Shown here: piece by piece, positions 7,073 through 37,272 of the stretch
Numbering within the stretch: position 1 is the stretch's first letter
How the letters are laid out: each line of letters starts with the position of its first letter
Assembly: GCF_003236175.1 (NCBI RefSeq)
Contig: NZ_QKTW01000009.1
Coordinates: forward strand, 1-64,000
Reading direction: 5' to 3'
DNA: 64,000 nucleotides
Source of the DNA: Taibaiella soli
Lineage (GTDB): Bacteria; Bacteroidota; Bacteroidia; Chitinophagales; Chitinophagaceae
The notes under the pieces: generated by a model
Databases searched by the model: none
The model's input: the letters and a program-made list of their open reading frames with translations, nothing else
Told to the model about the DNA's origin: nothing
Position numbers and translations under genes: made by a program

Positions 7073-9940
7073 CTACCGCATCAGCGTCACATCGCCTTTG
7101 TAAGTATCTTGTCTGCCGTCAGGCCATGCCAGGCGAATAATGTAATTGTACACGCCAACATCCTGCGCTTTTCCATGGAAAGTGCCATCCCATCCGCTAT
7201 TGTTGTCGTTGGTGTTAAACACTTCCTGACCCCATCTGTTGAATACCCGGAATTCAATCAGTTTTTGAAAACCCATATTCGCCGGGCGGAAAAGGTCATT
7301 TTTACCATCACCGTTTGGTGTAAAGGCAGATGGTATCGTTACCGGAATATTTGTCTGCACAGTTATTTTTACAGAATCTTGCTGACGGCACTGATTGGTG
7401 TCGATGGCGAGCAATGTATAGCTCGTGGTTACCTGTGGTGTTGCCGTCGGGTTGGCGATGTTCGGATCATTCAATCCAGCTACAGGATTCCAGAGATAAT
7501 AAATGCCACCTGTTACCAGTGCATTCATCGTTACTGACTGTCCATAAAGGATAGTGGTATCAGCGCTCACTGTAATCACGGGCAATGGATGTACGGTGAT
7601 TTTTTTGTTGAGTGTGTCGCTACAGCCATACTTGTCAAATATTACGGCGTGGTAAGTAATCGTTTGGGTAGGACGGGCAACAGGATCGGTACAGTTCGTG
7701 CAACTCAACCCAGTTGCGGGATACCAGTTATAGCTTACGCCGCCAGCCGCGTGCAGCTGCACCGAGTCACCACCACAAATAGCAGTATCGCGATTTGGCA
7801 GTAATGACGGGTTGCGTACGGAAACTGTCACCTTCGCTGTGTCGCGACGATAACAGAAATTGGAATCCATGATCTGCAGTTTATAAGTTGTAGTCGACGG
7901 GACATAGGCAGTGGTATTTTGCGCGGAGCTGTCGCCAACAAACAATGTCGGTGTCCAGAGGAAGGTATGTGCGCCTGATGTCGGTGCGCATTCCGTAAAC
8001 GTAATATTTGGACGATCGGCAGAAACTGGATAAGAGCTTGTGTTTGCAGCAAGACTACAGCCATTGCTGCTGCTTTGATGATTGTGTAAAACAGCGCCCG
8101 TCATCACATTGGCGGTTGTTTGTATCGCGTCGTTCAACGTGGCGCTGTTGTTATGGTAGCAAATTTCTACCAGCAGGTTCATAGAATCATTCCAATCATA
8201 ATTATAATCCAAAGTGACAGTGTTCTGGCCTGCTACAGAGGTAAATGAGGCAGGGCCATAAACGATAGATGCACCGGGCTCAAAGTCATTTGTGAGGGCT
8301 GCGGTGTGGGTGCATTTGAGTTTCACGGTGAAATTGTTGTAAGGGGCTGTGCTGTTTTTTGTCGTTACATTAAGACCTATCTGAGTGATCGTGCCACTTT
8401 TTAAACCGGCGGCCCTCAATTGCGCCGCTGTAAAAAGCATTTGCGTGCGGCTATCGCTCACAGCGCCATAGAGCGGGGTATTGGTCGTTGTGCCGGTAGC
8501 GGCACTGTTACCCACAGTGACAGGCGGGGCCGGATTTGTGCACGGCGTATTATTCGCACCACAGTTTATTGCCGGCGGCGGACCTGCGATAGAGATAGTG
8601 CTGTTAAGTCCGGCATAGCCTGGATAACAGAGGAGTTCCGGAGCGGCCTGCGCATCAATATAACCCTGGTCTGAGACTGTCCAGTTAAAAGTCCCGGCTA
8701 CAGAAGCATCACAAGTATCGGAGATTGGGTTGCCGTCTGTGCCCCAGATTACAGAAATGCTGTAGGTACCGGCGACAGGGATGGACTTGTCAAATTCTAT
8801 ATCGATGGTGTCTGTAAGATCTATTGTGCTGCCGCAGATGAATGGAACTGTTTTACAGCCTATAGGCATTGCGCTTGATACATGAACAAAACTTGGCCCG
8901 GTGATCTGAAAGTCGCTACCATCTGCCGCTACGGTGCTGCATTTAACCGGACGATTCAATACAATCCTTGCTTTTTTACACGCAGGTGTGTCCATTTTAA
9001 TGATCTGAATCGGTGATGGTGGCGGCGCTAATGTGAAATTGATCGCATCTGTACTCGCCTGAAAATTGCCGCAGTTATCGGAAAGTGTATTGCCGTCGGT
9101 GCCTGTTTGTGCGTGCAATGTATAAGTGCCAGCTGGCAATGCCGAGGTCATATGTAGGTTCAGCACATTGGAAAATGCACCACCTGCAACGCAGTTTTGA
9201 CTGGTCGCTTCTAATACCGGATAATTGACACCGGCGGATGAAGTAACCGTAAAATCGGAGCCGTTAGCAGCGATGGAACCACATTTAACCGGTTCTTTCA
9301 TTGTGACAATCAGATTGTCGCCCGAATATCCGCAGCGTGTTCTTACATCAGAAAATACCGGCGGCACCGTGTCTGTAATGGATGTCGTGGATGCAGAAAA
9401 GTCAAGAGTATAACCAACATTGCTTTGAGAATAGTTGTCGATCACGATCACATAGCTTTCGCCTGCAACCGCATTAATGGCCGAACTAAAACCGGGGCCG
9501 CCTGCACCTAGCGATGGCTGTGTTGCCGTGGTAGAAAGTCCGGTAAGGATACCGCTGCCCGTACCGGCGTAATTACAGCGCACCGGCAGATTATTGTGAA
9601 CGATATCGCAAACGCTTTGGCCGCAACCGTTTGGCGTTACATTCCAGACCGCAAAATCGTAGTCGGTCTGCGATGCTGGTGTGAGCGTAAAAACCAGCGT
9701 GCCCGACTGTACAATGTTGATAATGTACCAGGTAGTTAAGTGTTCATTGCCCAAAAGGCAATCCTGGTTGGTTGCAGTAATATCCTGTACGTTTCCAGAG
9801 CCGGGCGATGCCACATTCTGAACATATATCGGCTGGCATATAGGTATGGCGCCGATGCAATCCTGGGTTACAGCCTGTGCAAAACCTTGACACGTGAGCA
9901 TGACAAGTCCTGCAAGAAATAGTAAGGGTTTCAAGTTCAT
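7073..9940 (-). CDS. Large secreted protein with T9SS type B sorting domain
   Basis: 955 residues with a Sec signal peptide (cleavage near AQA, 23). Residues 24-190 form a Cys-rich N-terminal domain of the kind seen in gliding-associated proteins. Two homologous modules follow, about 193-304 and 309-422; they share PVKC-(S)-A-(D/N)GSDF and TDGN-(L/I)SD-C. A central domain and PKD/Ig-like segments come next. The CHU-type C-terminal domain (about 865-955) starts at IPSAFTPNGDGKNDLF and ends in GDVTLMR. The protein is expected to cross the inner membrane by Sec and the outer membrane by T9SS, then attach to the surface. The ligand is unknown. It stands alone and is divergent from the DUF3276 gene. 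Confidence 0.85.
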   Translation of the reverse strand: MNLKPLLFLAGLVMLTCQGFAQAVTQDCIGAIPICQPIYVQNVASPGSGNVQDITATNQDCLLGNEHLTTWYIINIVQSGTLVFTLTPASQTDYDFAVWNVTPNGCGQSVCDIVHNNLPVRCNYAGTGSGILTGLSTTATQPSLGAGGPGFSSAINAVAGESYVIVIDNYSQSNVGYTLDFSASTTSITDTVPPVFSDVRTRCGYSGDNLIVTMKEPVKCGSIAANGSDFTVTSSAGVNYPVLEATSQNCVAGGAFSNVLNLHMTSALPAGTYTLHAQTGTDGNTLSDNCGNFQASTDAINFTLAPPPSPIQIIKMDTPACKKARIVLNRPVKCSTVAADGSDFQITGPSFVHVSSAMPIGCKTVPFICGSTIDLTDTIDIEFDKSIPVAGTYSISVIWGTDGNPISDTCDASVAGTFNWTVSDQGYIDAQAAPELLCYPGYAGLNSTISIAGPPPAINCGANNTPCTNPAPPVTVGNSAATGTTTNTPLYGAVSDSRTQMLFTAAQLRAAGLKSGTITQIGLNVTTKNSTAPYNNFTVKLKCTHTAALTNDFEPGASIVYGPASFTSVAGQNTVTLDYNYDWNDSMNLLVEICYHNNSATLNDAIQTTANVMTGAVLHNHQSSSNGCSLAANTSSYPVSADRPNITFTECAPTSGAHTFLWTPTLFVGDSSAQNTTAYVPSTTTYKLQIMDSNFCYRRDTAKVTVSVRNPSLLPNRDTAICGGDSVQLHAAGGVSYNWYPATGLSCTNCTDPVARPTQTITYHAVIFDKYGCSDTLNKKITVHPLPVITVSADTTILYGQSVTMNALVTGGIYYLWNPVAGLNDPNIANPTATPQVTTSYTLLAIDTNQCRQQDSVKITVQTNIPVTIPSAFTPNGDGKNDLFRPANMGFQKLIEFRVFNRWGQEVFNTNDNNSGWDGTFHGKAQDVGVYNYIIRLAWPDGRQDTYKGDVTLMR

Positions 9941-25257: not shown

Positions 25258-25485
25258 ATGCGGTCAAACGTCAATGGTCAATGGGCAATGTCAAACGTGA
25301 AACGTGAAACGTCAAATGTCAATGGGCAAACGCTCGAACGTCAATTGCGAAGACATAGTGGGGCAATCACCAAGCACAAATCTCCAATCTCAAATATTTC
25401 GGGGCAATCAGCATTCGTAAATATTAAATCTCAAATAATTGCGGGCTAATCTGAAATCACAAATCTCCAATCTCAAATATTTCAA
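25258..25485. repeat. Degenerate short-unit repeat region
   Basis: First part (25265-25335): units such as GTCAAACGTGAAAC and GTCAATGGGCAA recur irregularly. Second part: a 26-base sequence starting CACAAATCTCCAATCTC is present twice without change, at 25375-25400 and 25458-25483. No gene is seen. The open frame of rsmA runs back into this region, but only because the repeat lacks stops. Confidence 0.75.
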
Positions 25486-25510
25486 ATGTTTTCTGGACTT
25501 TTGCAGCGAT

Positions 25511-26269
25511 ATGCAATACACGTTAAAGAAAAGCCTTGGACAACATTTTCTACATGATGAAAACATGTGTAAGAAAATTGTGTCGCAAATAGAGCCGTCA
25601 GCAGGCATGCAATTGCTGGAAATTGGCCCTGGCGGCGGCGCGCTTACCAAATATCTGATTGAATGGAAGGACGTGCAGTATAAGGCTATTGAGGTAGACG
25701 AAGAAAAGGTGCAATATTTGCAACATACGTATCCGGTGCTGAAAGATAAAATTATCCTGAAAGATATACTGCAGGCGGATGTTCCGTTTGAAGGCAAGTT
25801 TAGTGTGATCGGTAATTTTCCCTATAATATTTCTTCGCCAATCATGTTTAAAATGCTGGAATGGGAACCGCAGGTTGATGTGATCATTGGTATGTTTCAG
25901 AAGGAGGTAGCGGTACGTATCGCAGCTGGACCGGGGTCTAAGCAATATGGCATTTTAAGTGTATTGACGCAGGCATTCTTTAAAGTCGATTATCTCTTCG
26001 ATGTAAATCCAAATTGTTTTACGCCGCCGCCAAAAGTGATGAGTGGGGTGGCAAGCTTCGTGAATTCGGGAAATCCTTTTGGCATCACGGAAAAAAGAAA
26101 ATTCTTCAACCTCGTAAAAGCGGGATTCAATCAACGTCGCAAAACATTGCGTAACGCACTGCGTGGCACTTTGCCGCCGGAAGCGCTGACACACCCGTTG
26201 ATGGACAAACGTGCCGAGCAATTGTCTGTAGCAGATTTCGTATCACTTCACAAGCAATATCAGTTATGA
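25511..26269 (+). CDS. rsmA: 16S rRNA dimethyladenosine transferase
   Basis: Dimethylates two adjacent adenines near the 3' end of 16S rRNA using SAM, late in 30S assembly. 252 residues from ATG 25511. KKSLGQHFLHD opens the protein, the SAM motif I LEIGPGGGALT is at 36-46, and the catalytic NFPY is at 102-105. Upstream in-frame codons to 25439 are repeat sequence, and family members begin close to the chosen ATG. GACTTTTG at 25497-25504 is one base off the -7 consensus, which would give an almost leaderless message. The stop overlaps the next ATG by 4 bases (ATGA). Confidence 0.94.
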   Translation: MQYTLKKSLGQHFLHDENMCKKIVSQIEPSAGMQLLEIGPGGGALTKYLIEWKDVQYKAIEVDEEKVQYLQHTYPVLKDKIILKDILQADVPFEGKFSVIGNFPYNISSPIMFKMLEWEPQVDVIIGMFQKEVAVRIAAGPGSKQYGILSVLTQAFFKVDYLFDVNPNCFTPPPKVMSGVASFVNSGNPFGITEKRKFFNLVKAGFNQRRKTLRNALRGTLPPEALTHPLMDKRAEQLSVADFVSLHKQYQL

Positions 26270-27207
26270 ACCAATCGGGAAAAGTCTTGATCGCGGCGCC
26301 GGTGCATCCAGTTTTAACGGAAGGCCTGGAAGCTGCGGGATACACGTGTGCTATTCATGAAAAGATAACACAGCAGGATGCATTTGAACTCATCAGGGAT
26401 TGTGTCGGTGTGATTACTTCCACAAGACTTTTGCTCGATAAAGCTCTGCTGGATGCGGCTCCCAAACTGCAGTGGATCGGGCGTATGGGCTCCGGTATGG
26501 AAATTATCGACGTGCCTTATGCGACAGAAAAGGGCATTGCCTGTTTCAGCAGTCCCGAAGGAAATCGGAATGCTGTTGCCGAACACGCTATGGGCATGTT
26601 ATTGGGCGTTACCAAGCGCATCGCATGGAGCCACCAGGAAGTGCAAAAAGGTTTGTGGCTACGAGATGAGAACCGTGGCACTGAACTGGAAGGAAAAACA
26701 ATCGGAATCATTGGCTATGGTAATACGGGCAAGGCTTTCGCGAAGAAGTTACTGGCATTTGATATGAATATTCTGGCTTACGACATTGATCATACTTTAC
26801 CGGTTCAGGAAGGTGTGGTCTTTTGTCAAAATCTGGATCGCATTTTCGAAGAAGCAGAGCTGCTTAGTTTTCATTTGCCATTAACAGAAAATACATATCA
26901 TTATTTTGACAATGTTTTTCTTCAGCAGATGACTAAGCCATTTATTTTGATTAACACCTCCCGTGGCGACGTAGTTGATACAAATGTAATATGGGAAGGT
27001 TTGCAGTCGAAAAAGATAAAAAGTGTTTGTTTGGATGTGCTGGAAGGTGAGCCGCTGACGAAGATGAATGATGAAAAAAAGCAATTGGTTCATCAGATAT
27101 CGATGCTGCCAAACGCCCTGATAACGCCTCATATAGCGGGTTATAGCTTCGAAGCGGTATACAAGATGAGTAACTCCTTACTGACAAAAATCGTCATACC
27201 AAAGTAA
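26266..27207 (+). CDS. D-2-hydroxyacid dehydrogenase (phosphoglycerate dehydrogenase-like)
   Basis: An NAD(P)-dependent 2-hydroxyacid dehydrogenase of 313 residues. The Rossmann motif GIIGYGNTGKAFA is near 147-159. The catalytic Arg is in NTSRGDVVD, the Glu in VLEGEP, and the His in TPHIAGYS. The length matches a single catalytic/NAD core without the ACT or ASB regulatory domain of long SerA, so 3-phosphoglycerate is possible but not proven. Translation is coupled to rsmA by the ATGA overlap. Confidence 0.85.
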   Translation: MNQSGKVLIAAPVHPVLTEGLEAAGYTCAIHEKITQQDAFELIRDCVGVITSTRLLLDKALLDAAPKLQWIGRMGSGMEIIDVPYATEKGIACFSSPEGNRNAVAEHAMGMLLGVTKRIAWSHQEVQKGLWLRDENRGTELEGKTIGIIGYGNTGKAFAKKLLAFDMNILAYDIDHTLPVQEGVVFCQNLDRIFEEAELLSFHLPLTENTYHYFDNVFLQQMTKPFILINTSRGDVVDTNVIWEGLQSKKIKSVCLDVLEGEPLTKMNDEKKQLVHQISMLPNALITPHIAGYSFEAVYKMSNSLLTKIVIPK

Positions 27208-27274
27208 AACATATAAAATAAACATTTCCTTGACAAAAAAGAGCAACTGCCGTATTACTTTTAACAGAAGTTTT

Positions 27275-27282
27275 TATCTTTA
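27275..27282 (+). promoter_or_regulatory. -7 box of the receptor/surface-protein operon
   Basis: TATCTTTA, one base from TAnnTTTG, about 27 bases before the ATG at 27309. No -33 box at normal spacing is obvious, so an activator or alternative sigma factor may be involved. Confidence 0.4.
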
Positions 27283-27308
27283 CCCCTCATTTGGTTAATA
27301 AATCTTTA

Positions 27309-30300
27309 ATGCAGGATATGACACGTACACTACGTTATTTATTCTTATTGCTGTTTATCGGGATTTCCGGAGAGGCTCTTGCCCAGGCGGGTGAGCTATT
27401 CGGTACCGTCTTAGACGCAACCAAACAGCCGGCAATCGGCGCCATTATCAATGTGGAATCCGGAGGTATTTCCAAAGGAGGAACAGCCGCGGATATTGAT
27501 GGTAACTATTCCATTAAACCGTTGCAGCCAGGCCGCTACACTGTAAAAGTGCAGTACGCAGGTCACAATCCGATAACAGTTTCCGATGTGTTGATCAGCC
27601 CGGATAACGCAACTAAATTGAACTTTAGCATGGAAACCTCAAAAGGTAACGTGCTGAAAGAAGTTCAGGTAAAGTATGTTCGTCCGCTCGTTGATAACGC
27701 CCGTCCTGGTACCAACAATACCATGACACGCGAGCAGATCAAAAACATGCCTACGCGTAACACTGCGGATATCGCGTCTTTGTCAACTGGTGTATACCAG
27801 CAGAAGCAAGGTCAAACCAACCTGAACATCGGTGGTGGTCGTTCAAACGGTACACTTTACATGATTGATGGTGTAATGGTGAGCGGCGGTGCAAACTCCG
27901 TAAACCTTCCTCCTGACGCGATCGATCAGATGGAAGTAATCACTTCAGGTATCCCGGCAAAATATGGTGATGCCTCTGGTGGTGTAATCAAACTGACCAC
28001 ACGCGGTATCTCTAAAAATTTCCGTGGCGGTGTAAACGTTGAACACTCTCTGGATGGTTACAACAACAATTATGTTGCGTTTAACATTTCCGGTCCGTTC
28101 ATGAGCCGCATGGTAAATGACATTAAAAAACCAATCGTAGGTTTCTTCCTCTCTGGTGACTACCGTAGCTATAAGGACAATGATCCTTCTTATGGTGGTA
28201 ACTATGTAGTGAACGATGCTAAACTGGCTGATATGCGCGAGCATCCGCTGGTAGCTGTCGGTACTGCTACAGGTGTTCCGAACCTCAGACCAGCAACAGA
28301 GTTTGTTACAATGTCTGATCTGACTACACAAAAGGCAAAAGTTAATGCAAGTGGTAACCGTGCAACTTTGCTCGGTAAACTCGATTATGAGATCACTCCA
28401 GGTACCAACCTTACTGTAGGTGGTTCATTTAACTACACTAATTATTACGACTACAACCGTGCGCTCACACTGTTCGCTCCAGACGCAATGCAGAAGAGCA
28501 ATCAGTATACCGGTCGTGGTTATATCCGCTTTACACAACGTTTTGGTAAATCGGCTACTGGTGATAAAAAAGAAAATAACAAAATCAGCAACGCATACTA
28601 TACTGTGCAGGCTGACTACCAAAAGGATTACATCTCTACAGAAGATCCTAATAATAAAAGAAATCCGTTCCTGTACGGTTATGTTGGTAAATTCGTAGAA
28701 AACCAAACTCCGGTTTATTCTCCGGGTCTTGATACCGCAACTCAAGTAGATCACAATGCAATCCTGTTGCAAGGTTACCAAGGTACTGGTATTACATACA
28801 CTCCTTCTAATGTAAATCCATACCTCTCTAATTATACTTCTCAGTATTATGCATTAGGTGGTACAAACCCTACTGCTCTTAACAATATCCCAAGTAACGG
28901 TGCATATCTCCGTAACGGTGATAACCCAGGTTATACTTACTCTCTGTGGCCTGGCGTTGGCTATCCTCAGACCGGTTATGGCTACAGCCGTGCAGATCAG
29001 TTCTCTTTTGGTGTAGATGCGTCATTTGACTACAAACACAACAAGACAACACACGCTATCGAATTCGGTCTTTACTATCAGCAACGTACTGAACGTGATT
29101 ACCAATATGGCGTAAGAGGCCGCAGCGTATGGACTATCATGCGTCAGCTGACAAGTGCAAACGTTAATAATAACCTGGATCACTCTAATCCGATTTATAT
29201 CGTTAACGGTCAACAATACACGAAAGATCAGATCGATGCAGGTGATGTAATCCCTGGTCCTGGTGATACTGTAACATACAATCGTGCTTACAATGGTGAT
29301 CCTACACACGTAGGTGGTTTCGATTATAATCTGAGACAAAAATTAGGTGCATCTAATCACGATTACATCCAGCCGGATGCGATGGATCCTTCTACTTTCT
29401 CAATGAATATGTTTACACCTGATGAATTGCTGAACAGTGGTAAACCATTGGTTTCTTACTATGGTTATGACTACCTCGGTAATGTTGTAAATGGTCAGGT
29501 AAACTTTAATGACTTCTTCACAGCGAAAGATGCAAACGGAAACTATACCCGTACTATCGGTGCTTACCGTCCAAACTATATGGCTGGTTATATCTCTGAT
29601 GCGGTACGTTTCAAAGACATCCTCTTCACAATTGGTGTACGTATCGAACGTTTCGATAACAACACTAAAGTGCTGAAAGATCCATACTCAACTTCTCCGA
29701 CTTATTCTTTGTCTCAAATAATGAGCAATAATAATGATCCGGAAAATCACTCTCAGGCAAACTTTGGTACAAACGGTATTCCTTCTAACATCGGTAGCGG
29801 TTATGTAGTATATGTTGATGATAACGCTTCGGTAAAACCAACTGTAACTGGTTACCGTAACGGTGATACATGGTACGATGCAACTGGTCGTGAAGTAGCT
29901 GATCCAAACATTCTGAAACAAGAAAGCGGTCGTGATCTGCAACCATACCTCCAAAGAAATACAGACGGTACAGCAATTCCGAAAATCTCTGATGCTGGCT
30001 ATGATCCAACAGGTGCATTTACAGATTACAAACCTCAGGTAAATGTAATGCCACGTATCTCTTTCTCATTCCCGATCAACGATGTTGGTTTGATCTATGC
30101 ACACTACGATGTGATCATGCAACGTCCTAAATCATTCAGCAGCGTTCTGACTGGTACACAGGCTTATGCTTCTCCGGTTGATTATATGTACATCCAACAA
30201 AATGGTAGCTCAGTAATCATCGGTAACAACAACCTGAAACCAGAAAGACTGACTAACTATGAAGTAGGTTTCCAACAAAAACTGTCTGACCTGTCTGCGA

Positions 30301-31160
30301 TCACATTGAATGCATTCTACAAAGAACGCCGTGATCAGATCCAGGCTCGTCCTTACCTGTACGCTTACCCGACTACTTACTATACTTACGCCAACAAAGA
30401 CTTCTCTTCTACGAAAGGTCTGGGTGTGAAATATGAACTGCGTCGTGTAAACCACATCTCAATGCTCCTCAGCTATACTTTGCAATTTGCTGAAGGTACC
30501 GGTTCTACTGCTACTTCTTCTTATGGTAACGGTACTGCAGGTCTGCAACAAAACCTCATTCAGGCTTCATTGCCGAACCTGATGCTGGTAAATCCACTGG
30601 ATTACGATTCTCGTCACAATATCGCTGCCAGCATCGACTACCGTTATGCTGCAGGTGAAGGTCCGGAAATCGGCGGTCTGAAAGTGTTCCAGAATGCTGG
30701 TATCAACCTGATGTTTAACGCAAGAAGCGGTGAGCCTTATACGCACTACGCAGAAGCTCAAAGCCTGGCTGTTGACGCGAGCAACTCAAGAACAATTCAA
30801 GGTGGTATCAACGGCAACCGTTTGCCTTGGCACTACATGTTCAACCTGAAAATCGACAAAGACTTTGCACTGAGCTTCAACAACAAAAAAGACGAAGCAT
30901 CTGCTACAAAAAGAAAGTACTATGTTAATGCTTATGTGATGATCAACAACCTGCTGAATACACGCGACGTACTTCAAGTATATCCGTACACAGGTCGTTC
31001 TGACGATGATGGTTACCTGACATCTCCACAAGGTATTCAGTTCACTTCAAACCAGACAAATCCTAAATCTTACTCGGACCTGTACACTGCTTTGATGCGT
31101 AATCCATCATATCTGAATAACCCTCGCAGAATCATTTTAGGCCTTTCATTTAATTTTTAA
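27309..31160 (+). CDS. TonB-dependent receptor with carboxypeptidase-regulatory-like domain
   Basis: An outer-membrane beta-barrel of about 1283 residues. The signal peptide ends near AQA (residue 26). A CarboxypepD_reg-like beta-sandwich (about 27-115) begins GELFGTVLDATKQP. The plug domain (about 120-240) includes NTADIASLSTGVYQQ and LYMIDGVMVSGG. A long barrel follows, and the chain ends in LGLSFNF with a terminal Phe typical of barrels. I chose ATG 27309 (Met7 of the longer frame; the upstream TTG at 27291 is unlikely). Codon use is strongly biased (GGT, CGT, AAC), suggesting high expression. It is first of three genes with the giant surface protein and the PorV-like protein. The substrate is unknown. 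Confidence 0.88.
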   Translation: MQDMTRTLRYLFLLLFIGISGEALAQAGELFGTVLDATKQPAIGAIINVESGGISKGGTAADIDGNYSIKPLQPGRYTVKVQYAGHNPITVSDVLISPDNATKLNFSMETSKGNVLKEVQVKYVRPLVDNARPGTNNTMTREQIKNMPTRNTADIASLSTGVYQQKQGQTNLNIGGGRSNGTLYMIDGVMVSGGANSVNLPPDAIDQMEVITSGIPAKYGDASGGVIKLTTRGISKNFRGGVNVEHSLDGYNNNYVAFNISGPFMSRMVNDIKKPIVGFFLSGDYRSYKDNDPSYGGNYVVNDAKLADMREHPLVAVGTATGVPNLRPATEFVTMSDLTTQKAKVNASGNRATLLGKLDYEITPGTNLTVGGSFNYTNYYDYNRALTLFAPDAMQKSNQYTGRGYIRFTQRFGKSATGDKKENNKISNAYYTVQADYQKDYISTEDPNNKRNPFLYGYVGKFVENQTPVYSPGLDTATQVDHNAILLQGYQGTGITYTPSNVNPYLSNYTSQYYALGGTNPTALNNIPSNGAYLRNGDNPGYTYSLWPGVGYPQTGYGYSRADQFSFGVDASFDYKHNKTTHAIEFGLYYQQRTERDYQYGVRGRSVWTIMRQLTSANVNNNLDHSNPIYIVNGQQYTKDQIDAGDVIPGPGDTVTYNRAYNGDPTHVGGFDYNLRQKLGASNHDYIQPDAMDPSTFSMNMFTPDELLNSGKPLVSYYGYDYLGNVVNGQVNFNDFFTAKDANGNYTRTIGAYRPNYMAGYISDAVRFKDILFTIGVRIERFDNNTKVLKDPYSTSPTYSLSQIMSNNNDPENHSQANFGTNGIPSNIGSGYVVYVDDNASVKPTVTGYRNGDTWYDATGREVADPNILKQESGRDLQPYLQRNTDGTAIPKISDAGYDPTGAFTDYKPQVNVMPRISFSFPINDVGLIYAHYDVIMQRPKSFSSVLTGTQAYASPVDYMYIQQNGSSVIIGNNNLKPERLTNYEVGFQQKLSDLSAITLNAFYKERRDQIQARPYLYAYPTTYYTYANKDFSSTKGLGVKYELRRVNHISMLLSYTLQFAEGTGSTATSSYGNGTAGLQQNLIQASLPNLMLVNPLDYDSRHNIAASIDYRYAAGEGPEIGGLKVFQNAGINLMFNARSGEPYTHYAEAQSLAVDASNSRTIQGGINGNRLPWHYMFNLKIDKDFALSFNNKKDEASATKRKYYVNAYVMINNLLNTRDVLQVYPYTGRSDDDGYLTSPQGIQFTSNQTNPKSYSDLYTALMRNPSYLNNPRRIILGLSFNF

Positions 31161-31184
31161 TCAACACGGTAACGATAAAAAGTT

Positions 31185-34100
31185 ATGTTAGTAAATAGTA
31201 AAAAATGGCTCTCGCTGGCGATGACCACTGTCTTTACAGGGGTTGGTCTCCTCGCCACTGCGCGACCAAATCAGAACTTTAACGGTCAGCGTATGACTAA
31301 TGGTACCCAGCGTACCACGGCATCGCGCGATTGTAAGCCAGCGACGTCTGCTATCGATCTTGACATCAATAACGTTCGTGCCAGATTGATGACCGGCGGT
31401 GATATGTGGTGGGATCAGGGTAAAGATGTTGCCGCTTACGAAGTACCTAAGGGAAGCGGAAAGAGCTCACTCTTTGCTGGTTCGGCATGGATTGGTGGTT
31501 ATGACCCTCAGGGTAACCTGAAAGTTGCCGCACAAACATACCGTCAGGACGGTAATGACTATTGGCCTGGCCCGCTTGAAGCAGGTGCCTACACTACAAG
31601 TTCTGCAACTTGTTCTGAATGGGATCGTTTCTGGCGTGTAGAAAGATCAGATATCAACACCTTCCGTGATTTGATTAAAAAAGGATCCGTTCCTGATGAA
31701 TCGGATCCTGCATATGCTCCGATTTATCAGTGGCCGGCTCATGGTAACACTAAAGCTATAGGTAACAGTGGCGCCCCTCTGGATCTGCTTACTGCTACCA
31801 CACGTGATTACGCTCCGTATATCGACGTTAGTGGCCCGGGTGGTAAACCAGATGGTATCTACAACCCTCAGTACGGTGACTATCCAGATATCCTGGGTGA
31901 CCAATACATCTGGTGGGTGTTCAATGATGAAGGTAACATCAAAATGCAGACGCAAACAGATGCGATCGGTATGGAAGTTCAGGCTAGCGCCTTTGCGTTC
32001 TCTACAAAAGATAACCTCAACAACGCTACCTTCTATAACTACCGTATGATCAACCGTAGCCCGTCTACGCTGGATACAGCGTTTATCGCTACATGGACCG
32101 ATGCGGATCTGGGTTATGCATTCGATGACTTTATCGGTTGTGATACTGCTCGTGGTCTTGGTATCCTTTATAACGGTAAAAGTATTGATGGTAACGGTGA
32201 ACCAAGCAGCTATGGCTCTCAGGTTCCAATGGTAGGTGTTGACTTCTTTATCGGTCCTAAACGCTTTATTCCTAACCCGAACAAACCGGGTACAGATACA
32301 GCGATTAAACTGAAAATGACTGCCTTCACGTACTTTAATAACGATAACTCTGCAATCGGTAACCCAACCAATGGTCAGCAGATCTATGGTTATATGACCG
32401 GTACAAACCGCGGTGGTCAGCGTTTCTCTTATGACTGGGATGGTACAGCAGGTCACACCAGTGTGGCTTATGGTAAAGGTCCACTCATCAAATTTGCATA
32501 CGTTGGTGAACCAGATAACACATCTTCATGGTCTGAGTGTACTTGTGGTAACAAACCATATGACCGTCGTTTCATCCACTCTTCCGGTCCTTTCCAATTG
32601 CAGGCTGGTAGCATTGACCGTTCTCAGAACGACGTAACAATCGGTGCTGTGTGGGTTGCGGACGTAGGTGGTTGTCCTAACACATCATTCAAGAAAATCC
32701 GTGTAGCAGATGACGAAGCACAGGAACTGTTCGATAATAACTTTAAAACAATCGAAGGCCCTGAGGCTCCACGTCTCGTAATTCGTGAAATGGACCGCAA
32801 ACTTGTGTTCTATATCATGAACGATTCTAACAGCACAAACTTCCAGGAGAAATTCGGTTATGATCTTTCTGATCAGAAATACCGTGTTGCTTCTCCTAAA
32901 ACAAGACACTTTAAAGATTCTCTCTACAAATTCGAAGGTTACCGCATATTCCAGCTGAAAAACAGCCAGATTTCTGCAGCTCAGATCTTTGACGAAAATG
33001 GTCAAGTTGACCAGACAGTTGCTGCTGAGGTATTCCAGACAGATATCAGAAATGGTGTAAGCCGTATTGTTAACTATAGCAAGGCAACTGACATCAGCGA
33101 TACTACATGGGCATATTCTGTGAAAGTAACTGGTAAGGATAGTGGTATCGTTCACAGTTTCTCTCTGCAAACTGACCGATTCGCATCTACGAAAGATCCT
33201 CGTTTTGTAAACTATCGCAACTACTACTTCGTAGCAATCGCATATTCTTACAACCAATTCGCTCCATTTAATGCGAAACTGTCTGACTCAACTCAGGACG
33301 TTCCTTACCTGGAAAGTGCGCATGGTGCAGGTGGTGTTCCTATTCCAATTGTAGTAGGTATGCCTAACCCGGCTAACGGTGATATGGGTACTACACTGAA
33401 CGCTGATTATGGTAGCGGTGTAATTGTGAAAAGAATCGAGGGTATTGGTAACGGTGCTAACTTCATCTCTATGGATGCAGCATCTGAAACTGCAGCACTC
33501 GATCCGAACAATAACTTTGAAATCGGAAACCCAACTTATGTTGCTGGACAATCTCCGGTAAATGTAAAAGTGGTAGATCCACGTAAAGTACAGAAAGGTA
33601 ACTGGGAACTGTTCATCACCGGTACTCAGTATGCTGATCAAACAAAAGGTATTATCCCAACTCAGGGTTCATGGAAACTCGTTTATAACGGTGGTCAGGA
33701 CGTAATCTATAGCGAACGCGATCTGTCTGTATACAACGAGCAAATCCTTGAAAACTACGGTATCTCTGTAGGTCTGACACAAACTGTTCGTCCTGGTGAT
33801 GATCAGATTAACTCAAATGGTCTGGTAGGTTCTGATGTTACTTTCGCTGATCCTGGTACTGCTTGGTTGACTGGTGTTATCGATCAGGAATCTAAAAACC
33901 TCCAGAACTGGATTCGCAGCGGTAAAAACAAAGAGGATTCAGTAAATCCATGTAACTATAATGACTACGCCCTTGATACTGTAGGTCAGTTCTACGAAAA
34001 CCTGATGCCAAACAACGCGCTCGTTGCTAAAACATGGGCTCCGTTCCCGCTGGCTACAGCAGAAAACAGACCTGCTTGTGGATTTGGTGTAATTCCAAAC

Positions 34101-35159
34101 AATACATCTTCTGTAAACGGAATGTATCAGTTGCACGGTGTTGATATCGTGATGACATCTGACAGAACAAAATGGACTCGTTGTGTTGTATTTGAAATGG
34201 AAGATGACCCAACCCTTGCTGAAGGTGGTGCTGCTAAATACCGCCCTAGAAAACACCTTTCATGGACTGGTGACGTAGATGGTTCTGGTGCTCCTGTTTA
34301 TGATCAAAGCGATTCTGGCAGATCTTGGTTCCCGGGTTATGCAGTTGATCAGGAAACTGGTGTACGTCTGAACGTTATCTTCGGTGAAGATAGCTGGTTG
34401 AAAACTCAAAATGGTGCAGATATGATCTGGAACCCGACTACACCACTGCAAATTAATGGTGACGGTTCTGGTACTATCGGTAACGTAATCAACGGTGGTA
34501 AACACTATATCTACGTTCTGGGTACGAAATATGATGAAGGTCAAGGTACAATCACTGCGCTGCAAAGCACAAACGCCCTGAACGTACAGAACTATTTTAA
34601 AAATACTTTCATGTGGGTAGGCTTGCCTACGCTTACTGCAGGTTTCAACCTGAAGTCACTGAAAGATGGTATCATCCCGACTGAAACAAGACTCCGTATC
34701 CGCGTTTCTCGTCCTTACGCACAATACCTGCCTACAGGACAGACAGCGATAAATGGCAACCTTCCTTACTATACATTTAGTACAGATGGTCTGGCTCCGG
34801 TAGCGCTTACTGATAACTCACATGGTAATAAGGATTCTGTAGCTGATCTGATGGCTGTAGTTCCAAACCCTTACTATGGTTACTCGGGTTACGAAGTAAA
34901 CCGCGTAGGTACTACGGTTCGTATTATCAACCTGCCACGTCGTGCTACTGTAAGCATCTATTCACTGGATGGTACGCTGGTTCGCCGCCTCGAGAAAGAC
35001 AATGCAAACGTGTCTTACCTCGACTGGGATATCCTGAATGCTAAGAGCCTTCCAATTGCTAGTGGTATGTATCTTATCCATATCAATGCAGAAGGTGTAG
35101 GTGAGCGGATTATTCGTTGGTTCGGTGCAATGCGTCCGGTTGATATCACTAACTATTAA
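31185..35159 (+). CDS. Giant secreted surface protein with atypical T9SS-like C-terminal domain
   Basis: 1324 residues with a Sec signal peptide (cleavage near residue 27). The N-terminal half contains landmarks of a Bacteroidota-specific family: GDYPDILGDQYIWWVFND (near 233) and WTDADLGYAFDDFIGCD (near 305), Asp-rich loops that could bind Ca2+. The last ~100 residues begin VVPNPYYGYSGYE and end SGMYLIHINAEGVGERIIRW, then a tail FGAMRPVDITNY. This resembles a T9SS type A sorting domain, but with an added conserved-looking WFGAMRP tail. Codon use is as biased as in its neighbours. It lies 24 bp after the receptor and 66 bp before the PorV-like gene. The molecular role is unknown. Confidence 0.82.
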   Translation: MLVNSKKWLSLAMTTVFTGVGLLATARPNQNFNGQRMTNGTQRTTASRDCKPATSAIDLDINNVRARLMTGGDMWWDQGKDVAAYEVPKGSGKSSLFAGSAWIGGYDPQGNLKVAAQTYRQDGNDYWPGPLEAGAYTTSSATCSEWDRFWRVERSDINTFRDLIKKGSVPDESDPAYAPIYQWPAHGNTKAIGNSGAPLDLLTATTRDYAPYIDVSGPGGKPDGIYNPQYGDYPDILGDQYIWWVFNDEGNIKMQTQTDAIGMEVQASAFAFSTKDNLNNATFYNYRMINRSPSTLDTAFIATWTDADLGYAFDDFIGCDTARGLGILYNGKSIDGNGEPSSYGSQVPMVGVDFFIGPKRFIPNPNKPGTDTAIKLKMTAFTYFNNDNSAIGNPTNGQQIYGYMTGTNRGGQRFSYDWDGTAGHTSVAYGKGPLIKFAYVGEPDNTSSWSECTCGNKPYDRRFIHSSGPFQLQAGSIDRSQNDVTIGAVWVADVGGCPNTSFKKIRVADDEAQELFDNNFKTIEGPEAPRLVIREMDRKLVFYIMNDSNSTNFQEKFGYDLSDQKYRVASPKTRHFKDSLYKFEGYRIFQLKNSQISAAQIFDENGQVDQTVAAEVFQTDIRNGVSRIVNYSKATDISDTTWAYSVKVTGKDSGIVHSFSLQTDRFASTKDPRFVNYRNYYFVAIAYSYNQFAPFNAKLSDSTQDVPYLESAHGAGGVPIPIVVGMPNPANGDMGTTLNADYGSGVIVKRIEGIGNGANFISMDAASETAALDPNNNFEIGNPTYVAGQSPVNVKVVDPRKVQKGNWELFITGTQYADQTKGIIPTQGSWKLVYNGGQDVIYSERDLSVYNEQILENYGISVGLTQTVRPGDDQINSNGLVGSDVTFADPGTAWLTGVIDQESKNLQNWIRSGKNKEDSVNPCNYNDYALDTVGQFYENLMPNNALVAKTWAPFPLATAENRPACGFGVIPNNTSSVNGMYQLHGVDIVMTSDRTKWTRCVVFEMEDDPTLAEGGAAKYRPRKHLSWTGDVDGSGAPVYDQSDSGRSWFPGYAVDQETGVRLNVIFGEDSWLKTQNGADMIWNPTTPLQINGDGSGTIGNVINGGKHYIYVLGTKYDEGQGTITALQSTNALNVQNYFKNTFMWVGLPTLTAGFNLKSLKDGIIPTETRLRIRVSRPYAQYLPTGQTAINGNLPYYTFSTDGLAPVALTDNSHGNKDSVADLMAVVPNPYYGYSGYEVNRVGTTVRIINLPRRATVSIYSLDGTLVRRLEKDNANVSYLDWDILNAKSLPIASGMYLIHINAEGVGERIIRWFGAMRPVDITNY

Positions 35160-35225
35160 TAACTGAATTTGAAAGGGCCGGTAGCCATTCCGGCCCCCAA
35201 ATAAATAATTCATCATATAACGTTT

Positions 35226-36305
35226 ATGAAAAGTTTTTCTACCAAAGCTGCATTAGCTATCTGTGCCATCGGCTTATCGGTGCAGGCTTTTGCAGGAAAT
35301 AAAGATAGATCCGGACAAGCGGGAGCAACAGAAATGCTGATCAACCCTTGGGGTGCTTCAAACGGCGTGTTTGGCCTGAACACGGCAACTGTGTCTGGTG
35401 TAGAAGCTATGAAGGGGAACATTGCCGGTCTCGCCATGGCTGATCGTACAGAAATAGGTTTAGGATATACGATGTACCTCTCTAACTCTAAAGTAAGCAT
35501 AGCAGATCTGGGCTTTTCTCAGAAACTGGGCAACTTTGGTGTACTGGGTGTAAACATTATGTCTACTTCTTTCGGCGAAATTCCAATCACTACTTATGAT
35601 AATCCATCAGGTGGTGTTGGTACTTACAAACCTCAGTTCCTGAACTTCCAGGTTGGTTTTGCCAAAGAATTCTCTAAATATGTACGTGCTGGTATCTCTG
35701 CTACCTACGTGAGTGAGCAGGTTACCAACGTATCCGCTCAGGGCGCTTGTTTCGACGCAGGTGTACAATACGTAACCGGCGCACGCAATAACTTCCACTT
35801 CAGCGTTGCTTTGCGTAACCTCGGTACCAATATGCGCTACTCTGGCGGTGGTTTCGCTGTTGACGCACAATCTCAGTACGGAACATATTCTATGTCCCAG
35901 GACGTTCCTTCCGATAAATTCGGTATGCCAACGTATCTGAATTTCGGTCTGGCATATGATTTCTACCTGGATGAAAACAAATTGCAAAATCAGGATGATA
36001 AGCCAAAACATCGTCTGACTGCAATGGGTAGCTTCCAGTCTAACTCTTATCAAAACGACTATCTCGGCCTTGGTGCAGAATACGCGTTCCGCGAAATGTT
36101 CATGCTCCGCGCTGGTTACCGTTATGAAAAAGACATCAACACCGATCAGAGCAATACAATGTTTACTGGTTTCAGTGCGGGTGCATCAGTTCAGTATAAA
36201 GTAGGTGACAAAGGTCCGCGTCTGGCTGTTGACTACGCTTACCGTCCTACTGCAAAACCAAACAACGGAGTACACACGTTCACGCTCCGCATGCATTTCC
36301 GTTAA
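35226..36305 (+). CDS. PorV/PorQ family outer-membrane protein
   Basis: 359 residues with a signal peptide (cleavage near FAG, 21) and a predicted 14-stranded FadL-like barrel. The start after the signal, SGQAGATEMLINPWGA, and the AMKGNIAGLA segment are typical of PorV/PorQ. The protein closes HTFTLRMHFR. PorV is the T9SS component that collects cargo from the translocon and hands it to the attachment machinery, and PorQ relatives serve similar roles. Its position after a T9SS-type giant protein suggests it is a dedicated partner (inference). It is last in the operon, with a terminator 27 bases after the stop. Confidence 0.85.
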   Translation: MKSFSTKAALAICAIGLSVQAFAGNKDRSGQAGATEMLINPWGASNGVFGLNTATVSGVEAMKGNIAGLAMADRTEIGLGYTMYLSNSKVSIADLGFSQKLGNFGVLGVNIMSTSFGEIPITTYDNPSGGVGTYKPQFLNFQVGFAKEFSKYVRAGISATYVSEQVTNVSAQGACFDAGVQYVTGARNNFHFSVALRNLGTNMRYSGGGFAVDAQSQYGTYSMSQDVPSDKFGMPTYLNFGLAYDFYLDENKLQNQDDKPKHRLTAMGSFQSNSYQNDYLGLGAEYAFREMFMLRAGYRYEKDINTDQSNTMFTGFSAGASVQYKVGDKGPRLAVDYAYRPTAKPNNGVHTFTLRMHFR

Positions 36306-36331
36306 GGATATTTTTCTTAAATTCGTTTTTG

Positions 36332-36370
36332 TACAACGCTTCTGTCTCAATCAGAAGCGTTGTATTTTTT
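36332..36370 (+). terminator. Strong intrinsic terminator of the 27-36 kb operon
   Basis: A 13-bp perfect stem TACAACGCTTCTG with a 7-base loop, followed by six T. Confidence 0.9.
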
Positions 36371-36392: not shown

Positions 36393-36866
36393 ATGTCTGG
36401 AGTTAATTATGTTACAAAAGAGACGTTGGAACAAATGAGAGAGGAATTGACACAGTTGAAAACGTCGGGTCGCGCTGAAATTGCACACGCGATTGCTGAA
36501 GCCCGTGAAAAAGGAGACTTGCGTGAGAATGCTGAATATGACGCCGCTAAAGAAGCTCAGGGTCTGCATGAAGCTAAAATTGCAAAACTTGAAGCCGCCA
36601 TTGCCTCTTCCCGCATAATGGATACCAAAGATATTGATACAAGTAAAGTCTCTATACTGAGTAAAGTAAAAGTGACGAACCTCAATACTAAGAAAACAGT
36701 TGAATACCAGATCGTTTCTGAAAAAGAAGCAGATCTCAAAGCAGGTAAGATTTCTGTTACTTCGCCAATCGGCAGAGGTCTGCTGGGTAAAGTAGTAGGT
36801 GAAGTTGCAGAAGTGACTGCTCCTAGTGGCGTAATTAAATTTAAAGTCGAAGAAATTTTCATTTAA
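36393..36866 (+). CDS. greA: Transcription elongation factor GreA
   Basis: Rescues backtracked RNA polymerase by stimulating transcript cleavage through the secondary channel. 157 residues: an N-terminal antiparallel coiled coil (about 1-75) with the acidic tip in GDLRENAEYDAAKE (49-62), then a C-terminal FKBP-like domain ending in SPIGRGLLGKVVGE (about 128-141). The length is normal. The ATG at 36393 follows directly after the terminator of the previous operon. The HIT gene is 10 bases downstream, so both are probably co-transcribed. Confidence 0.95.
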   Translation: MSGVNYVTKETLEQMREELTQLKTSGRAEIAHAIAEAREKGDLRENAEYDAAKEAQGLHEAKIAKLEAAIASSRIMDTKDIDTSKVSILSKVKVTNLNTKKTVEYQIVSEKEADLKAGKISVTSPIGRGLLGKVVGEVAEVTAPSGVIKFKVEEIFI

Positions 36867-36876
36867 TAGCTCTCTT

Positions 36877-37272
36877 ATGGCCACCATTTTTTCAAAGATC
36901 ATCGCAGGTGAAATACCTTCTTTCAAGATCGCAGAAAACGATCATTTTTATGCTTTTCTGGACATCTTTCCGCTGGTGAAAGGTCATGTGCTGGTTGTGC
37001 CGAAAGTGGAAGTAGATAAGTTTTTCGATGTGTCAGACGATCTGCTGAGCGAATGGCTGGTTTTCGCAAAACCTATTGCAAAAGCTATTGAAAGTTCTTT
37101 TCCGTGTAACCGTTGTGGCATAAGCGTGGTTGGCCTGGAAGTGCCGCATGCACACATGCATCTTGTTCCCATCAACGGTGCCGACGATCTGAATTTTACC
37201 CGACACAAGCTGAAGCTTTCGGAAGAAGAACTGAAAGAAATTCAGGCAACCATCGTAGCAAAGCTTTCTTAA
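36877..37272 (+). CDS. HIT family nucleotide hydrolase/transferase
   Basis: 131 residues of the histidine triad type (HINT-like). The catalytic triad motif PHAHMHLVP gives His91, His93 and His95. An N-terminal IFSKIIAGEIPSFKI stretch and LVKGHVLVVPK (33-43) are typical. HINT proteins hydrolyse phosphoramidate or acyl-adenylates of AMP; the substrate here is unknown. It follows greA in the same operon, a conserved pairing in Bacteroidota. Confidence 0.9.
   Translation: MATIFSKIIAGEIPSFKIAENDHFYAFLDIFPLVKGHVLVVPKVEVDKFFDVSDDLLSEWLVFAKPIAKAIESSFPCNRCGISVVGLEVPHAHMHLVPINGADDLNFTRHKLKLSEEELKEIQATIVAKLS

Follow-up and report, generated by a model that had tools for sequence, protein, structure and literature searches.

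What keeps the genes for a TonB-dependent receptor (TBDR), a giant secreted protein and a barrel of the PorV/PorQ family side by side? The three are adjacent on the plus strand of the window analysed here (64,000 nucleotides of the Taibaiella soli contig NZ_QKTW01000009.1), and a sequence-only reading had proposed that cargo, its delivery partner and an energised receptor here form a dedicated assembly, one that may recur in Bacteroidota. The proposal is supported in part: the co-occurrence was borne out, and the delivery-partner half of the proposal gains support from a PorZ-like CTD sorting signal on the giant and from a structural model of that CTD with the barrel. On balance we consider it probable, though far from assured, that the three gene products work as a single complex at the outer-membrane surface, in which a giant protein exported by T9SS is parked on a private barrel and serves the adjacent TBDR.

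The open reading frames are tightly packed between a conserved upstream element and a terminator, with gaps of 24 bp between TBDR and giant and 66 bp between giant and barrel, as had been described. The TBDR gene (27309..31160, +; 1283 aa) starts at the ATG of ATGCAGGAT (27309), a position chosen by conservation as it is kept in orthologues; the mechanical ORF begins at TTG 27291. It is followed by the gene for the giant T9SS cargo protein (31185..35159, +; 1324 aa), whose 3' end encodes a CTD sorting signal (34905..35096, +; residues 1241-1304 matched) and a C-terminal tail after a conserved Lys/Arg1311 (WFGAMRPVDITNY; 35118..35156, +), and then by the gene for the outer-membrane barrel (35226..36305, +; 359 aa), the proposed cognate shuttle and anchor. 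The strong terminator noted earlier is present at the operon end (36331..36365, +) as an intrinsic terminator with a 14 bp stem including 6 G-C pairs, followed by TTTTTATT. A -7 box had been noted at 27275, and this belongs to the upstream element TTTTAACAGAAGTTTTTATCTTTAC (27259..27283, +), which has a single occurrence across the 5.38 Mb genome, also when two mismatches are allowed. A matching element lies 49-62 nt 5' of the TBDR ORF in all 15 close family orthologues, with no other copy anywhere in those 15 loci, and the element is probably a promoter or regulatory site specific to this operon. The strong codon bias reported for the three genes was also recovered, with codon adaptation values of 0.78, 0.77 and 0.73 for TBDR, giant and barrel relative to a window median of 0.61 (reference: ribosomal-protein region), indicating that the trio is likely to be highly expressed. 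Between the giant and barrel genes is a GC-rich hairpin (GGGCCGG-8-CCGGCCC, without a T-run; 35175..35196, +) that could set the ratio of cargo to barrel. Similar hairpins of unrelated sequence are found in 10 of 15 close orthologues versus 16 of 41 control gaps, and we dropped it as a conserved feature because control gaps often carry the like.

The giant had been described as Asp-rich and secreted; secretion is expected by homology, from its TIGR04183 CTD, but the composition was overstated, Asp being mildly frequent at 7.4%. Ca-site-like Asp-rich motifs are present in its N-terminal half. The match to TIGR04183 is weak (26.4 bits, cut-off 23), and orthologues score 19.9-26.3 bits, some of them under the cut-off. 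For the last 130 residues of the orthologues, the best NCBIfam match was the PorZ CTD in 10 of 10 proteins (25.6-43.2 bits; 25.6 for the window protein), above TIGR04183, and the PorU CTD was next best in most, whereas ordinary cargo CTDs had TIGR04183 as the best match in 10 of 10 (44.6-59.9 bits) and matched PorZ weakly or not at all. The likeness to PorZ is confined to the CTD, and both the giant and its orthologues score far below the cut-off of the PorZ equivalog NF052228 (260 bits). No match to PF13585, the type B (CHU_C) CTD model, was found in the giant. The CTDs of PorZ and PorU are reported to be uncleaved and held on PorQ and PorV respectively, and it has been proposed that the private barrel shields them (PMC10202324). 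The PorZ/PorU-like CTD therefore suggests that the giant would remain uncleaved by PorU. A conserved Lys near the end of type A CTDs contacts PorV (PMC10994853); in alignments, at least 90% of the giant family have Lys at position 1311, where the window protein has Arg. A tail of ~13 residues past the usual CTD end is conserved in giant orthologues and absent from the cargo of the other TBDR-cargo-PorV sets described below, which terminates at ...KFAIIK. Elsewhere in the same genome (L003:8497-10128, G000 C15), a 543-aa protein related to the N-terminal half of the giant carries a type A CTD of the ordinary kind (PF18962, 44.8 bits) and is encoded without a TBDR or barrel alongside. Such short relatives are present in most trio genomes of Chitinophagaceae, indicating that other T9SS cargo also uses this domain of ~500 residues, which has no Pfam match.

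The third gene had been read as a T9SS-linked barrel, and its product indeed belongs to the PorV/PorQ family (NF033709, PorV_fam; 133.4 bits, cut-off 90). It scores 63 bits against PorQ and 53 bits against PorV, below the equivalog cut-offs of 220 and 250, and most scanned trio barrels likewise score higher for PorQ than for PorV, the order being reversed in one of eight. The genome encodes SprA and a canonical PorV, as expected of a T9SS-competent organism. It has just four PorV-family genes, making chance adjacency of one of them to the giant negligible. We modelled the CTD and barrel as an artificial CTD-linker-barrel chain, in which the genes were read in frame across the 66-bp gap with the TAA as Q. 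The model has a pTM of 0.84, where a ceiling of ~0.69 would be expected for a CTD with no fixed position relative to the barrel (336 of 511 residues plus background), indicating a confident placement; this fit is supportive rather than proof, as covalent joining in a model can force contact. The top Foldseek match of the joined model was 8gl6_F, PorV of the F. johnsoniae translocon (E 7e-12). At least 150 TIGR04183-positive cargo proteins are encoded in the genome, a very large T9SS secretome for 5.4 Mb. Other T9SS-related genes include one in the window whose 955-aa product has a type B signal of the CHU_C kind (7073-9940; PF13585, 66 bits), and a second barrel-protease pair in which the gene for a PorV2-family barrel (NF052325, 450 bits) precedes that for a C25 peptidase of 1702 aa whose end is CTD-like (L143:7534-13848, G000 C11).

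We searched 296 Bacteroidota genomes and found relatives of the giant in 138, and examined the neighbourhoods of 20 of these positives together with 80 further loci from named genome records. A TBDR directly upstream and a barrel directly downstream were found in 73 of the 81 loci with room on both sides, with constant order and strand. At seven loci (L077, L080, L085, L097, L110, L116 and L121) the giant is full-length and keeps its PorZ-like CTD and its tail intact, and neither a TBDR nor a barrel lies within several kb of it. The three proteins were also used separately to search 197 Chitinophagaceae genomes, and of the 169 that are near-complete, 31 have all three genes, 138 have none and not one is partial; the same 20 of 103 genera were positive for each protein. 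Independent presence at the observed frequency would predict ~1 genome with all three, a comparison in which the 31 are inflated by shared ancestry, and the lack of any partial genome is telling. Co-occurrence of the three families is therefore far above chance, the opposite of the outcome that had been named as refuting the assembly. The description of the operon as self-contained holds for the trio as a unit, but the unit sits inside a conserved neighbourhood, comprising rsmA (25439-26269) and a D-2-hydroxyacid dehydrogenase-like gene (26266..27207, +) at the left edge, and greA (36393-36866, +) and a HIT-family gene (36877-37272, +) at the right. Over several orders, greA is the 3' neighbour at 61 of 86 trio loci, with the HIT-family gene next in 58 of 86; a hydroxyacid dehydrogenase gene is 5' of the trio in 30 loci. 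In six of eight Chitinophagaceae that lack the trio, rsmA, the dehydrogenase gene and greA are directly joined, indicating that the trio is a cassette with one old site in the chromosome, where it is either complete or missing. As greA is its neighbour in records from Flavobacteriales and Bacteroidales as well, the trio may be ancestral, with repeated losses. One record titled Azovibrio restrictus, a betaproteobacterium, also contains the trio, with a giant 55% identical to that of the window (L055), and is probably a mislabelled Bacteroidota MAG.

The arrangement also recurs with other cargo. Two distant genomes encode 18 (G030) and 21 (G066) PorV-family genes, and among the loci inspected we identified eight TBDR-cargo-PorV sets in the former (L042, L146-L152) and seven in the latter (L049, L155 twice, L156, L157, L160 and L161). 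The cargo of these sets comprises 677-1285 residues and outside the CTD is largely unrecognised by Pfam. Every complete repeated set with other cargo includes a TBDR, and no such TBDR was found at the canonical PorV loci L144 and L145, which served as a negative control. In both genomes the profile and orthology scores of the three parts are correlated (Spearman 0.77-0.93), indicating that partners are inherited as sets. At one further locus (L153:7676-11669), a TBDR gene and a PorV-family gene are directly adjacent, in that order, and a cargo gene is missing; this locus and the seven giants with no adjacent partners count against a single complex.

These distributions bear on how much of the trio functions together. 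The barrel and the giant could be a dedicated secretion pair, with the TBDR as a bystander that only shares their regulation, in response to a common nutrient condition, and makes no contact with them. Pairing of a CTD with its barrel has precedents in PorZ-PorQ and in type B cargo with PorP/SprF (PMC10202324; PMC9143113; PMC12618676), and is supported here by the PorZ-like CTD and the CTD-barrel model; we nonetheless regard a bystander TBDR as possible but not likely, as the receptor is as indivisible from the trio as the other two members and is retained when the cargo body differs. Still less probable is that the giant is an ordinary cleaved T9SS surface protein or adhesin and the barrel a redundant PorV paralogue. 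TIGR04183 is passed, and the genome has numerous type A cargo proteins and a canonical PorV to serve them, but the CTD of the giant is atypical, with its PorZ likeness and its tail past the usual end, and ordinary cargo lacks a private barrel, whereas this trio is inherited as a unit.

The receptor itself is recognisable as TonB-dependent, with a plug domain (PF07715, 48.6 bits, above cut-off) and a C-terminal barrel (PF00593, 24.3 bits, slightly under the cut-off of 27), and it carries the N-terminal carboxypeptidase-like domain that had been noted (PF13620, CarboxypepD_reg; 53 bits). Neither Pfam nor NCBIfam gave a match to SusC/RagA models in the TBDR or to a SusD domain in its partner, and a PDB sequence search returned no relative of the TBDR or the barrel. 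The same search with the giant returned a single non-significant match. An AF2 model of giant residues 30-1195 (pLDDT 87.9, pTM 0.73) gave weak matches in a fold search against the PDB (best E 6e-4, TM-score at most 0.18), which yielded no firm ligand-binding fold. Many of these weak matches are to proteins with supersandwich-type domains, such as glycoside phosphorylases, GH116, amine oxidase and heparinase II, and from this similarity a glycan is one guess at the ligand. That the trio is an envelope-biogenesis or structural scaffold shaped like BamA-BamG-BamH, rather than an importer, is very improbable, for while BamG is a FadL-family barrel bearing a surface protein beside BamA (PMC12611786; PMC12578637) and the high codon bias would suit an abundant structural complex, the TBDR keeps a plug and a carboxypeptidase-like domain, as is typical for transporters of the TonB-dependent kind, the bodies of the cargo vary from set to set, and the trio is dispensable in most genera. 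A BAM accessory (BamG/H) identity had been considered because of the FadL/PorV-likeness of BamG, and was rejected as published descriptions and profile scans do not fit. For the single surface complex that we favour, contact between the TBDR and the giant is suggested by their strict genetic linkage and by the recurrence of such sets around other cargo bodies. A mirror-tree signal between the two (r 0.92, partial 0.81) was discarded since after alignment-length matching it was no better than with greA.

Four known systems resemble the trio in part. In the PorQ-PorZ complex, which functions in T9SS attachment, a PorV/PorQ-family barrel likewise holds a surface protein via a retained, uncleaved type A CTD, and both the CTD and the barrel of the trio resemble their PorZ and PorQ counterparts in profile scans; however, the cargo body is unrelated to PorZ by profile, a TBDR is co-encoded and scores are below the equivalog cut-offs. 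Type B cargo (SprB-SprF, PG1035-PorP) likewise has a dedicated barrel encoded just after it, the private PorP/SprF barrel acting as both shuttle and anchor (PMC9143113; PMC12618676), but the trio has a type A/PorZ-like CTD, a PorV/PorQ-family barrel and a TBDR as third member. SusC-SusD (RagA-RagB) also combines a TonB-dependent receptor with a dedicated surface partner encoded by an adjoining gene, duplicated as sets, whereas the partner in the trio is a T9SS-exported protein rather than a SusD-family lipoprotein. In BamG-BamH on BamA, a FadL/PorV-fold barrel similarly bears a surface protein next to a second barrel, but the trio has no BAM component and the window barrel does not match the BamG model. 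As judged by profile tests, the trio is outside PorQ-PorZ, type B cargo-PorP/SprF and SusC-SusD. By analogy, the closest functional precedents would be PorQ-PorZ and type B cargo for retention of the CTD, and SusD on SusC for placement at the TBDR. No description of such a trio was found in the titles, abstracts and passages of the open-access literature that was searched.

We propose that the giant is exported by Sec and then, by homology, carried through the T9SS translocon SprA via its CTD. This CTD would be of the retained PorZ/PorU kind, left uncut by the PorU sortase, and would stay on the co-encoded barrel, which may combine the roles of shuttle and permanent anchor; delivery by T9SS and parking on the barrel are moderately supported by the CTD profiles and the model. 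The parked giant may lie over or beside the TBDR and capture or gate a ligand in the manner of SusD on SusC, a SusD-type lipoprotein being in effect replaced by a T9SS protein on a barrel. Import of the ligand by the TBDR would draw on TonB energy, as expected for its family.

It is plausible that the trio represents a new architecture for import driven by TonB. If correct, it would join two machines that have so far been treated apart, T9SS and TonB-dependent import, and would offer a role for the many PorV/PorQ-family paralogues and giant T9SS cargo proteins that are unannotated in environmental Bacteroidota. The escape of some CTDs from the PorU sortase would also become testable, as a private barrel may be the determinant, and specificity could be probed with the panel already at hand in the repeated sets, whose cargo bodies differ.
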